Below are positions 8,273 through 53,783 of a stretch of 64,000 nt of DNA, piece by piece. The stretch comes from Fibrobacter succinogenes (GTDB lineage: Bacteria > Fibrobacterota > Fibrobacteria > Fibrobacterales > Fibrobacteraceae). Position numbers and translations under genes: made by a program. The notes below the pieces were generated by a model, which was not told the DNA's origin, searched no databases, and saw only the letters and a list, made by a program, of their open reading frames with translations. Positions within the stretch are counted from its first letter, which is position 1; each line of letters opens with the position of its first letter. The stretch lies in assembly GCA_902768715.1 (NCBI GenBank), contig CACXMH010000003.1, positions 1 to 64,000 on the forward strand, in the 5' to 3' direction.

Positions 8273-8380
8273 TGGGCGTTCCCCCGGTCTCTTAGCTGTA
8301 CCTGCGGAGGGGTCGGGCCATACTCGCTCCGCTCGCCGAGCCTGTAGTCTCGGCCCCAAGGGGTCACTGTCCCTAACGCG
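8273..8380 (-). ncRNA. Candidate structured element GCGTTAGGGA...GGAACGCCCA
   Basis: On the minus strand this reads GCGTTAGGGA at one end and GGGGGAACGCCCA at the other, so the ends can pair (GCGTT/AACGC). Inside are further complementary runs: GACCCCTTGGGG, GGCTCGGCGAGC and GGCCCGACCCC. It lies about 70 nt upstream of the GGDEF gene on the same strand. From memory, unchecked, elements with the same GCGTTAGGGA and AACGCCC ends occur dispersed in Bacteroidetes genomes. It may be a leader RNA or a non-coding repeat. Confidence 0.45.
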
Positions 8381-8384
8381 GAAG

Positions 8385-8447
8385 TTAGGTGGTAGGTAGT
8401 AGGTAGTAGGTTGTAGGGGTTAGGATTTAGGGGTTAGGATTTAGGGA
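8385..8447. repeat. TAGG repeat with two perfect 14-bp units
   Basis: TTAGGTGGTAGGTAGTAGG-type words are followed by two copies of GGGGTTAGGATTTA at 8416-8429 and 8430-8443. The same 14-bp unit, with C/T changes, recurs at 30939-30952 and five times at 36203-36272. Confidence 0.85.
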
Positions 8448-30926: not shown

Positions 30927-30931
30927 TGAGA

Positions 30932-30964
30932 GGATTTAGGGGCTAGGATCTAGGGGCTAGGGAG
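30932..30964. repeat. TAGG repeat with 14-bp units
   Basis: GGGGCTAGGATCTA at 30939-30952 plus partial units on each side. Same unit as 8416-8443 and 36203-36272. Confidence 0.75.
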
Positions 30965-31004
30965 GTTCGAGGCACGAGGCTCGGGTTTACGAGTTTCAGG
31001 ATTT

Positions 31005-36183: not shown

Positions 36184-36202
36184 ACCTCTTGAGACCGTCT
36201 GT

Positions 36203-36272
36203 CCTAGCCCCTAAATCCTAGCCCCTAGATCCTAACCCCTAGATCCTAGCCCCTAGATCCTAACCCCTAAAT
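36203..36272. repeat. Telomere-like 14-bp tandem array, five units
   Basis: Five consecutive 14-bp units CCTA(G/A)CCCCTA(A/G)AT at 36203, 36217, 36231, 36245 and 36259, differing only at two positions. The reverse complement is the GGGGYTAGGATYTA unit found at 8416-8443 and 30939-30952. Confidence 0.92.
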
Positions 36273-36367
36273 CCCCATTTTCTCAAAAAAACATATACAT
36301 TATTAAAAGTTTTTATGTAAATTACAGGAACGGGCCCTGAAAAGCCCCTTTACCCTTTGGAGATATT

Positions 36368-46694: not shown

Positions 46695-46724
46695 TTGACA
46701 AAAAAAACAGTGGATATATATATT
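46695..46724 (+). promoter_or_regulatory. Promoter of the antitoxin-like gene
   Basis: TTGACA at 46695-46700 and TATATT at 46719-46724, spacer 18. The -10 box ends only four bases before the ATG at 46729, so the transcript would be leaderless or start inside the reading frame. Confidence 0.6.
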
Positions 46725-46728
46725 ATAT

Positions 46729-46963
46729 ATGAAACGCAACTATGACTTCAGCAATGCGGTAAAGAATCCGTATGCAAAAAAAATTGAAGAAAACGATTTG
46801 CATCAACATCAGCGAATCGGTCCTCGCCTATTTTAAGGAACTCGCCGAAAAAACCGGGATTCCCTACCAGACTCTAATCAACATGTTCCTTACGCAGGCC
46901 AAAGCCGAAAAGATGGAACCAAAATTTATCGCAAAACCACCTCGAAAAAAACAGGTGGCATAA
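46729..46963 (+). pseudogene. BrnA/CopG-type antitoxin gene with +1 frameshift at an A8 tract
   Basis: Frame 1 from the ATG at 46729 gives MKRNYDFSNAVKNPYAKK. Frame 2 continues, from the A run at 46776-46783, as LKKTICINISESVLAYFKEL and AEKTGIPYQTLINMFLTQA to 46963. Joined, this is a normal BrnA/CopG antitoxin (YDFSxAxxNPYAK, then a ribbon-helix-helix). The A run has eight As where seven would keep the frame. The ATG at 46772 gives a 63-aa RHH-containing product on its own. It may be a frameshift mutation, sequencing error, or slippage-regulated gene. No BrnT toxin gene is next to it. Confidence 0.7.
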
Positions 46964-47134
46964 AACAAGCGACATAAAAGTCCCGCTTTGTTATTTCCCC
47001 CGTATCGTCAGTTTACATTTTTCAACTTTTCTTCTTCAGGAGGAATCGTTATGCCGTTGACATTTTCCTTGATGGAAATCAACAAAATCCCAGAAATCCA
47101 TCTTTTTTTTCTGATTTTTTCAGCGTCAAAACGC

Positions 47135-47208
47135 TTGCGAACCTGCATAAAATAAGGTATATTCAGAAAGCAGGTCTTATAGGGGCTCTTTATGAGCAGG
47201 GATAAAAC
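47135..47208 (+). promoter_or_regulatory. MSR leader element, copy A: promoter, leader and start codon
   Basis: TTGCGA (47135-47140) and TATATT (47158-47163) with a 17-nt spacer form a good promoter. It is followed by TCTTATAGGGGCTCTTTATG, in which AGGGG is a ribosome binding site six bases before the ATG at 47192. From 47145 on it matches copy C (53721-53783), and 47174-47208 matches copy B (47858-47892) in 34 of 35 bases. GGCTC/GAGC can pair around the AUG. Confidence 0.75.
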
Positions 47209-47794
47209 TTTAATGATATCCGCAGCATTATGTTTCCTTCTAGGAAGCTGTACGCTCAATGAAGAAAACGTAAATTGTTATGAAGCAAATCTTTTTGCTA
47301 GTATTAATTTATTGACAACGACTAAAATTGATAGTACTAAACTTAGTTGCAATAATAAGGATTTTAGATTTTTTAACGAATCTTTTATTTGTATGGATAC
47401 AACCATATCAACACATTTCATTACCGACACTATTTCACAGTTGGGAAAATATACTTGTTCTAGGGACTATCCACTATGGTACGCATATCATTTTTTCAGC
47501 ACTCCTTTTAACAAGATAGAATTAGAATCAACGAAACTGAATTTGATTATTTATGGCTCGGAAATCGAACAGAAAATCGACATATCGGAATTCATCAGTG
47601 GTGGTCAGATCACCAACATAATCACAGAAAAAGATACCGTAAATTGGTTTTCACAGGACGAGAATTTTGTAGTACCTTATTTTTCCGATTATAAGTCTCC
47701 TTTGTTATCAATTCGTTTAGGTTGCCGTGACGGCTACTGTTTTGCAACCTTGCCAATAACCGAATCAGAATTTTGTTATGACCATTCTCTATGA
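47192..47794 (+). CDS. AT-rich lipoprotein of unknown function, flanked by direct repeats
   Basis: 200 aa. Starts with MSRDKTLMISAALCFLLGSC, a lipoprotein signal peptide with lipobox. The remainder has several Cys residues (CYEANLFAS, LSCNNKDFRF, FICMDTT, YTCSRDYPLWY, CRDGYCFATLP) and no family I recognise. Codon use is visibly more A/T-rich than in any neighbour, which suggests transfer. The start codon and first five codons lie within repeat copy A; copy B lies 64 nt beyond the stop, so the gene sits between 35-bp direct repeats 684 nt apart. Confidence 0.7.
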   Translation: MSRDKTLMISAALCFLLGSCTLNEENVNCYEANLFASINLLTTTKIDSTKLSCNNKDFRFFNESFICMDTTISTHFITDTISQLGKYTCSRDYPLWYAYHFFSTPFNKIELESTKLNLIIYGSEIEQKIDISEFISGGQITNIITEKDTVNWFSQDENFVVPYFSDYKSPLLSIRLGCRDGYCFATLPITESEFCYDHSL

Positions 47795-47857
47795 AGAATT
47801 TTATGCGACAAAAAAACTCAATTTGGTTCAATATCAGCAAATCAAGCTAAATTTATA

Positions 47858-47892
47858 GTCTTATAGAGGCTCTTTATGAGCAGGGATAAAAC
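47858..47892 (+). repeat. MSR leader element, copy B (direct repeat of copy A)
   Basis: 34 of 35 bases match 47174-47208, including the SD-like stretch and ATG (47876). No promoter-like TATATT precedes it. The ATG opens a 19-codon frame MSRDKTRTEKPVIIPGNCR. Confidence 0.85.
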
Positions 47893-47953
47893 CAGAACAG
47901 AAAAACCTGTTATAATTCCTGGAAATTGCCGATAATACGCAAGTGATCAGGAC

Positions 47954-48076
47954 TCTCGGCGGAATCTCGCAGGGACTAACAGTCACAAGAGTTTCCTCCT
48001 GTAGCAACGGTTCTTTCCAGTAAAATATCGAGGGAAAGATTTGTTAAAGGAGAAGCCCCGTCAAGCGGGGCATGAC
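47954..48076 (+). repeat. Dispersed repeat R1, copy 3 (internally deleted)
   Basis: The left part TCTCGGCGGAATCTCGCAGG through GAGTTTCC (to 47996) and the right part CGAGGGAAAGATTTGTTAAA (48029-48048) match copy 2; the long stem between them is missing. It ends in a GCCCCG/CGGGGCATGAC hairpin (48054-48076). It abuts composite repeat H copy 2. Confidence 0.75.
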
Positions 48077-48091
48077 ATGAGGGTGCGGGGT

Positions 48092-48244
48092 GTTAGGGGC
48101 AGAGCCCCTAGGAGAGGGGGTGATGGAAGACTTGGCGAGATCGTTGGATTGTGATTGCTTCACCCCTATTCGGGGTTCGCAATGACACTGCCGACTTCTG
48201 TCTAATCGCCAAGGCTGCAATCAGGGGGAGGCGTCCCCCTTTCA
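48092..48244. repeat. Composite repeat H, copy 2, with a different hairpin in its loop
   Basis: Inverted relative to 29588-29706. The outer flanks are conserved but the stem is CTTGGCGA/TCGCCAAG and the loop carries GATTGCTTCACCCC...GGGGTTCGCAATGAC, a hairpin unrelated to the cargo of copy 1. The 47795-48252 gap consists of copy B, R1 copy 3 and this element; I see no gene. Confidence 0.75.
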
Positions 48245-48252
48245 ATAAAAAG

Positions 48253-49068
48253 CTACCGGCCGTTCAACAGGATTCGGGCGGGGTTGTGGAGGATGCCGTT
48301 GGAGGCGATGGAGCTGTACCCCTCGTGGACAGAGGCGATGGGGTGACCCGCTTCGTCAAAGAGGTCCGACTCCCCTTCGATGGTGGTGAACTTTCCGCCC
48401 GCTTCCTGGAACAGCAGCGGATAGGCGGCGATGTCCCACAGGGAGACAACAGGGTCCACCATCACTTCGGCACGACCCGATGCCACCAGGTAATAACCGT
48501 AGCAATCGCCCCAACCGCGGTAAAGGTTTGCACTCCGGCGAAGTTTCGCGAAGCCCTCGCCAAAGCCCACCGTTTCCATGGTGTTCACCGTTCCCGAAAG
48601 CACCAGGGCGTCAGCCAGGGAATGGACTCTGGAACAGCGGACCGGATTTCCGTCCAGAAACGCGCCGCCGTCTTGAACCGCCCACACGGCACTATGCAGG
48701 GCCGGTATGCGGATAACGCTTGCCACGGGGACATTCTTGCGGTAAAGGGCGATCAGCGTACCGAACAGGGGAACGCCCCGAATAAAAGACTTGGTGCCGT
48801 CAATGGGATCCACAATCCAGCGGTATTCTTTATCCGAAAGGCCGTCGCCGAATTCTTCGCCCAAGACGCCAAAATCGGGAGTTTCCTTAAGCCAGAATTC
48901 ACGGAGAAGTTCCTCGGTGCTCTTGTCGGCGAGAGTCACGGGGGTCCTGTCCGCTTTCCATTCGATGCTCAAGTCCCGGCGGAAGTATTTCAAGATGTTC
49001 TCTTCGGCCATCTCGGAAGCCTTGAGGGCGATTTTCAGAAGATCCAGGTTTGTAGCGGTCGCCGGCAT
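48253..49068 (-). CDS. hisN: Histidinol-phosphatase, inositol monophosphatase family
   Basis: 271 aa. Metal-binding motifs GEEFGDG and WIVDPIDGTKSFIRGVPLFG, and a C-terminal WGDCYGYYLVASGRAEVMVD and VSLWDIAA, match the HisN-type branch of the IMPase fold. It dephosphorylates histidinol phosphate in histidine synthesis. Its ATG begins directly after the hisC stop codon, so the two are translated together; this linkage supports hisN over a generic inositol phosphatase. Confidence 0.9.
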   Translation of the reverse strand: MPATATNLDLLKIALKASEMAEENILKYFRRDLSIEWKADRTPVTLADKSTEELLREFWLKETPDFGVLGEEFGDGLSDKEYRWIVDPIDGTKSFIRGVPLFGTLIALYRKNVPVASVIRIPALHSAVWAVQDGGAFLDGNPVRCSRVHSLADALVLSGTVNTMETVGFGEGFAKLRRSANLYRGWGDCYGYYLVASGRAEVMVDPVVSLWDIAAYPLLFQEAGGKFTTIEGESDLFDEAGHPIASVHEGYSSIASNGILHNPARILLNGR

Positions 49069-53690: not shown

Positions 53691-53720
53691 AAAATAAGAC
53701 GCACGGACGTTTAATTCCGC

Positions 53721-53783
53721 ACAAATAAAGGTATATTCCAAAAGTAGATCTTATAGGGGCTCTTTATGAGCCGAGGTAAACGT
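53721..53783 (+). repeat. MSR leader element, copy C
   Basis: Matches copy A from the -10-like TATATT (53732-53737) through TCTTATAGGGGCTCTTTATG and AGCCGAGGTAAAC; GGCTC/GAGCC around the AUG forms a slightly better stem than in A. The ATG at 53766 opens a 14-codon frame, MSRGKRNYLPPTRI, that runs into the 3' end of tldD on the opposite strand. No gene follows it. Confidence 0.8.

Follow-up and report, generated by a model that had tools for sequence, protein, structure and literature searches.

CRISPR-derived arrays of Fibrobacter that probably capture gene-sized DNA through a Cas9-less, type II-derived Cas1-Cas2

Our results support a model whereby a 35-bp repeat found across Fibrobacter very probably delimits CRISPR-derived gene-capture arrays, which would have been built by a cas9-less, type II-derived Cas1-Cas2 behind a leader promoter. 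We also consider it likely, with somewhat less assurance, that a CRISPR-integrase lineage of Fibrobacter and of one Bacteroidota rumen species has left immunity and is now a dedicated gene-capture platform that copies own-chromosome, prophage and foreign DNA without a length ruler. CRISPR adaptation is known for recording tags of ~30 bp. All the evidence is sequence, mostly from draft genomes, and the analysis started from a 64,000-nucleotide stretch of a Fibrobacter succinogenes contig (the window).

Results

A 35-bp repeat forms arrays across Fibrobacter

A sequence-only reading of the window had proposed that three look-alike stretches (47145-47208, 47858-47892 and 53721-53783) are copies of a ~60-bp promoter, leader and start-codon element. 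The likeness is real and far above chance: TCTTATAGGGGCTCTTTATG occurs exactly at 47175-47194 and 53749-53768 and with one mismatch at 47859-47878, against a chance expectation of 0.02 occurrences, and three were reached in 0 of 100 shuffles. The proposed size does not hold, since the true unit is a 35-bp repeat (copies A, B and C; Table 1) with a separate upstream leader on copy A. The upstream part with TATATT, described as common to A and C, is present at A and partly at C; copy B has no leader because it is the downstream repeat of copy A's array. As anticipated, copy C precedes only a 14-codon frame. The reading had also staked itself on further copies in the genome, and these exist, the five strong copies being the three in the window and two on contig C18.

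The unit reads R-TCTTATAGGGGCTCTTTATGAGCCGAGGTAAAAC, and its internal ATG is replaced by TTTTTGAG, TTTACGAG or TTTATAAG in many copies, so that a start codon is not a conserved property of the element. The supposed common translated head (MSR.K) is a by-product of the repeat's open frame: the ATG frame is open, both other frames contain stops, and after an ATG-bearing repeat 9 of 70 cassettes stay open for 60 codons. The GGCTC/GAGC(C) hairpin can form, but with 4-5 bp and, as DNA, -3 to -5 kcal/mol it is weak, and some copies cannot form it; with no Rfam match in 46700-48300 of the window, a structured RNA was rejected, and a leader-peptide RNA is likewise not supported.

The repeat model matches in 70 of 80 Fibrobacter genomes (weak matches only in 4 of the 70), with up to 20 matches per genome, and copies are grouped in same-strand arrays at spacings of 0.1-3 kb. 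A search tolerating up to three mismatches found no repeat in 24 genomes of 13 other genera. Carriage by phages or plasmids was rejected, as a viral collection held no exact repeat and a plasmid search returned only distant Cas1 matches. The window also contains 14-bp tandem repeats (CCTAGCCCCTAGAT-like) in both orientations at three distant places (8380-8446, 30931-30966 and 36188-36275).

Table 1. Features of the two arrays in the window.
Feature	Position	Strand	Basis or remark
Leader of array A	47112..47173	+	Alignment with leaders of cas1-cas2 loci
Predicted sigma-70-like promoter: TTGCGA (47135-47140), 17 nt, TATATT (47158-47163)	47135..47163	+	Predicted start near 47170
Repeat copy A, leader-proximal, 35 bp	47174..47208	+	Site-model E 2.1e-11
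ORF of 200 aa, predicted lipoprotein (LGSC motif), starting at the repeat ATG	47192..47794	+	ORF reading
Cassette of 649 bp between repeats A and B	47209..47857	+	Interval bounded by both repeats
Repeat copy B, distal array end, 35 bp	47858..47892	+	Site-model E 7.9e-11
Trailer CCAGAACAG...GAGTTTCC... after the last repeat	47893..48024	+	Same trailer at several loci, in several genomes
Partial leader of array C, TATATT at 53732-53737	53718..53747	+	~84% identity to copy A over -28..+33
Repeat copy C, 35 bp, degenerate 3' end (GTAAACG), empty array	53748..53782	+	Site-model match

A type II cas1-cas2 pair stands at the head of arrays in related genomes

The array order in related genomes is cas1-cas2 (where present), a 59-nt leader, the 35-bp repeat, and then any number of cassette-repeat units. 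In 10 genomes with intact cas1-cas2 and sufficient contig, the array begins directly after cas2; at the tenth intact cas1 locus, in G021, the end of cas2 is disrupted and the leader is the same. The distance from the cas2 stop to the first repeat is 59 nt in nine loci and 58 nt in one decayed locus, and copy A in the window shows the same 59 nt by direct reading. The Cas1 upstream of the arrays is of type II (TIGR03639, 5e-84), and Cas2 (TIGR01573, 103 codons) comes after it. Among the 80 Fibrobacter genomes, 11 have an intact close relative of this Cas1 and five more a decayed one. Aligned with Cas1 of S. pyogenes and E. faecalis (4zkj, 5xvn), the protein keeps the Glu, His and Glu that we take to be the active site.

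Many array-bearing genomes, the window's included, are missing cas1-cas2, so that most arrays would be relics at best. A cas-less array in G014 has a leader that still includes the 3' end of cas2; together with the 59-nt leader shared by copy A, this makes it most likely, as judged from these alignments, that cas-less arrays such as those of the window descend from cas-linked ones.

The window carries probable relics of such arrays

The leader of array A opens with a TGA (47112-47114) homologous to the cas2 stop of cas-bearing relatives, and this shared leader is the window's tie to cas2. Its TTGCGA-17-TATATT motif, with TATATT exactly 10 nt 5' of the repeat, matches 9 of 12 consensus positions, a score that alone does not exceed the shuffle background; the motif is conserved in the leaders of both cas-bearing and cas-less arrays. 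The cassette between copies A and B has a 97.5% identical counterpart at another locus, in G063 (L070), and is 96-97% identical to part of cassettes in G022 and G062. The 5' end of its lipoprotein ORF, which has only a sub-threshold Pfam match, is fused to repeat A, and homologues at L040 and L086 begin MKT/MKN..MISAALC. Last repeats in arrays of the genus are often followed by a conserved trailer, and that of the window recurs after the last repeat in L006, L040, L041, L043, L045 and L054.

In G016 and G022, other cassettes occupy the chromosomal site at which the window has copies A and B. The partial leader of copy C adjoins the 3' end of a TldD-like gene, at what is apparently the same locus that holds cas1-cas2 and cassettes in G071, G088, G018, G063 and G022. 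A tblastn search for cas remnants inside the window gave none that was convincing. By its sequence, the array of copy A looks like a relic that keeps the leader from the cas2 stop codon onward in a genome without cas1 and cas9, and because no cas1 was detected there, the arrays of this genome are probably inactive.

Two features around these arrays are recorded in their own right. A CopG/BrnA-type antitoxin ORF (46772-46963) lies just upstream of the array A leader, and small BrnT/BrnA-like ORFs also adjoin arrays in L006, L082 and L086. A dispersed element, GGAAACTC-GCAGGGACTAACAGTCACAA-GAGTTTCC, occurs at 1971-2039 and 47954-48022 of the window; in L051 its stem letters change on both sides with the loop unchanged, which suggests a structured RNA or a hairpin DNA.

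Cas9 is missing beside the gene-capture loci

No cas9 was found beside the gene-capture loci. Cas9 (TIGR01865) was not found in G000, G071, G088, G063, G080, G022, G075, G021 or G036, and it is absent from eight cas1-bearing genomes and from the window's own; G095 has only a sub-cutoff fragment, and Cas9 is present elsewhere in the genomes of G018, G030, G099 and an Alloprevotella. Within 5 kb upstream of four loci, the best tracr anti-repeat match was no better than in shuffles. Ordinary cas9-cas1-cas2-CRISPR loci of Fibrobacter, some in the same genomes, have a 78-bp period. Outside Fibrobacter, 76 Cas1 relatives were compared, and nearly all that could be tested have a large, cas9-sized ORF upstream and a period of 65-77 bp, and cas9 with the same period is found with most Bacteroidota relatives.

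One exception is an Alloprevotella locus (L147) with cas1-cas2 and no cas9 beside it, where two ~36-bp repeats 593 bp apart flank one 160-aa gene; a separate Cas9 locus lies elsewhere in its genome. L147 is a single locus on a long branch; the Cas1 tree joins it with the gene-capture Cas1 of Fibrobacter in one clade (100/98), to which Fibrobacter II-C Cas1 does not belong. Of 19 more Prevotellaceae relatives, those whose contig was long enough are ordinary cas9-linked loci; the exception is L291 (G261:C107), which has cas1-cas2 without cas9 upstream, shows no repeats downstream and adjoins a 1162-aa ORF.

Cassettes are gene-sized and in part copied from the host chromosome

The 89 cassettes measured span 113-3052 bp (median 577 bp); the smallest insert seen is 56 bp, and no ~30-bp spacer was seen in 53 arrays. 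Cassettes contain whole genes or gene fragments in either orientation, the best complete ORF being forward in 47 and reverse in 22. Their cargo comprises predicted lipoproteins, DUF7675 genes, PIN/AbrB and Fic-like genes, toxin-antitoxin parts, hypothetical genes, pieces of housekeeping genes and fragments of an apparent Mu-type prophage gene (several of these names were given by eye).

Three cassettes match the chromosome of their own genome. The leader-proximal cassette of G080, a 244-bp internal piece of a NUDIX-like gene between identical repeats, is 100% identical to a chromosomal segment at a distance of 167 kb; the flanks on either side are unrelated, and the source has no repeat. Cassettes of 346 bp in G063 and 214 bp in G095 match their own chromosomes at 99% and 97%, and the differences that they carry argue against assembly duplicates. 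In these cases the chromosomal source stays in place. The 3' flanks of the three sources (GATCAAGG, GGTAAAGG and GAAAACGT) are too few for a PAM. One 597-bp piece is found in opposite orientations and with different ends in G014 and G101 (L053 and L085, 99.5% identity). As read from the sequences, the self-copies and two-way captures favour capture of free DNA ends over the movement of fixed circular cassettes.

Near-identical cassettes (98-99.7%) also recur from genome to genome with their ends at exactly the same repeat boundaries, in some cases at separate loci; as a counterpoint, homologous recombination between repeats is another way in which identical cassettes could come to stand at different loci. 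DUF7675 (PF24723)-type genes recur as cargo in both orientations (L042, L070, L075, L077, L081, L082 and L115). One prophage-like region was captured several times (L079 2698-3174, L083 2991-3248, L075 130-316, L086 4213-4400 and L039 3535-3845), with different ends and in both orientations; it contains an inverted repeat with a varying stem and is possibly a hot spot or a structured RNA. A leader-proximal cassette in G063 (L071 2940-3734, contig C43) has 66% G+C, far above other cassettes, and is probably from another organism.

Arrays bear the marks of leader-proximal growth

Of the 35 positions, 2.75 differ between repeats of one array, 4.59 between repeats in separate arrays of a genome and 5.59 between repeats from different genomes, and 0 of 200 within-genome permutations gave a likeness within arrays as extreme. 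Where an array has three repeats or more, likeness is greater in the pair next to the leader than in the pair at the far end (Wilcoxon p 0.002), and one genome, G095, has eight identical repeats. At a locus with a GNAT gene, the distal 56-bp cassette is common to several species and the leader-proximal cassettes differ; a looser test, of where shared cassettes stand across all arrays, did not reach significance. Taken as a whole, these patterns are those expected of leader-proximal insertion with duplication of the repeat.

Discussion

In our model, Cas1-Cas2 would perform the integration: lacking Cas9 or another spacer-sizing partner, it would attach a gene-sized dsDNA by its two ends, one at each side of the leader-proximal repeat, and the repeat would then be duplicated by repair as in CRISPR adaptation, so that new cassettes enter beside the leader. 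The loss of Cas9 would thus be the loss of the length ruler, a step with a biochemical parallel in S. pyogenes, in which Cas1-Cas2 with Cas9 and Csn2 gives ~30-bp products at any substrate length and Cas1-Cas2 alone integrates unprocessed substrates (PMC8034620). The leader promoter could transcribe forward-oriented cassettes, in the window the lipoprotein ORF; a cassette in reverse can have a promoter within itself. Selection may retain useful cassettes, with cas1-cas2 often lost later, and the window would then hold two relics, copy A-lipoprotein cassette-copy B and the empty leader-repeat of copy C. We know of no precedent for kilobase integration by Cas1-Cas2, and solved Cas1-Cas2 complexes hold short prespacers.

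Two other routes to such arrays have to be weighed. An integron-like system, in which a novel tyrosine recombinase or XerC/XerD inserts circular cassettes with one 35-bp site at an attI-like leader site, would account for cassette arrays with same-strand sites, a Pc-like promoter and the exact boundaries of shared cassettes. We nevertheless consider it very unlikely, given that no integron integrase exceeds the TIGR02249 cut-off in the Fibrobacter genomes listed, that the same DNA was captured both ways round with different ends, that cassettes copy chromosomal segments without a site at the source and that cas1-cas2 stands at the array start. A true integron was rejected for the missing IntI, and a dedicated tyrosine recombinase because of the array-bearing G081, whose only tyrosine recombinases are XerC and XerD. 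An Xer/dif module (11-6-11 site) was rejected because direct comparison showed no dif-like arms in the repeat and a search with the dif consensus found only background matches. There is similarly only a slim chance that the arrays are passive, having begun as ordinary type II CRISPR arrays and, once cas9 was gone, taken up genes by homologous recombination at their repeats. The type II origin of Cas1, the identical cassettes at different loci and a repeat length near the recombination minimum speak for it; the lack of ~30-bp spacers, the greater likeness of leader-proximal repeats, a self-fragment whose source has no repeat, and cas1 and cas2 frames conserved without cas9 in several genomes speak against it.

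We give almost no credence to the proposal that the repeat is an expression-start module or leader-peptide RNA with genes downstream by chance, attractive as the conserved promoter, the open ATG frame and the window ORF beginning in the repeat make it. The repeat is not a translation module because its ATG is unconserved, it bounds reverse-oriented and promoter-bearing cassettes, and it also closes cassettes at their 3' ends, as copy B does; the linkage to cas1-cas2 and the genus-wide arrays contradict the proposal as well. The sequence-only reading is thus partly supported. A promoter-bearing leader does precede captured genes, which is what survives of its mobile expression module, and its suggestion that the stretch is the end of an unknown element pointed in the right direction.

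The proposed capture of genes by a cas9-less Cas1-Cas2 has close analogs among known systems. With type II-C CRISPR-Cas adaptation the Fibrobacter loci share homologous Cas1 and Cas2 (type II cas1 and cas2 adjoin the array in relatives, not in the window's own genome), the order cas1-cas2-leader-repeats, a 35-bp repeat, leader-proximal polarity and repeat duplication. They differ from it in that cas9 is absent from the locus and a tracr anti-repeat was not detected there, in that arrays are dispersed and several to a genome, and in that inserts, instead of a uniform ~30 bp, have any length between 0.1 and 3 kb and comprise genes or gene fragments that are potentially expressed. Like integrons, they place a gene-cassette array with short intervening sites behind a conserved predicted promoter and include decayed arrays without the enzyme; unlike integrons, they have no IntI, their repeats are homogeneous within an array, cassettes lie in both orientations, and source DNA is copied, not cut out. 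Where an integron site has an attC structure with GTT/AAC cores, the repeat showed only the weak 4-5 bp hairpin and no attC-type fold was seen, with cores judged by eye. As in our model, casposons use a Cas1-family integrase on long DNA, but no terminal inverted repeats or family-B polymerase were noticed in the ORF lists around cas1, and the inserted DNA does not contain cas1. S. pyogenes Cas1-Cas2 without Cas9 and Csn2 in vitro resembles our model in integrating unprocessed lengths with a leader-proximal preference and differs in being type II-A and cell-free, with no gene-sized substrates in the available part of that report (PMC8034620).

Our literature search, with preprints and most subscription papers outside its reach, found no earlier report of gene-sized spacers or of cas9-less gene capture. 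If our model is true, integron-like gene acquisition would have a second evolutionary route, from CRISPR, and the determinant of spacer length would be directly testable by comparing cas9-less and cas9-linked Cas1-Cas2 of one genus. The system could also serve as a tool to record whole genes in cells, or to collect them there. Finally, it would help to explain the turnover of accessory genes in Fibrobacter, a main fibre digester of the rumen.
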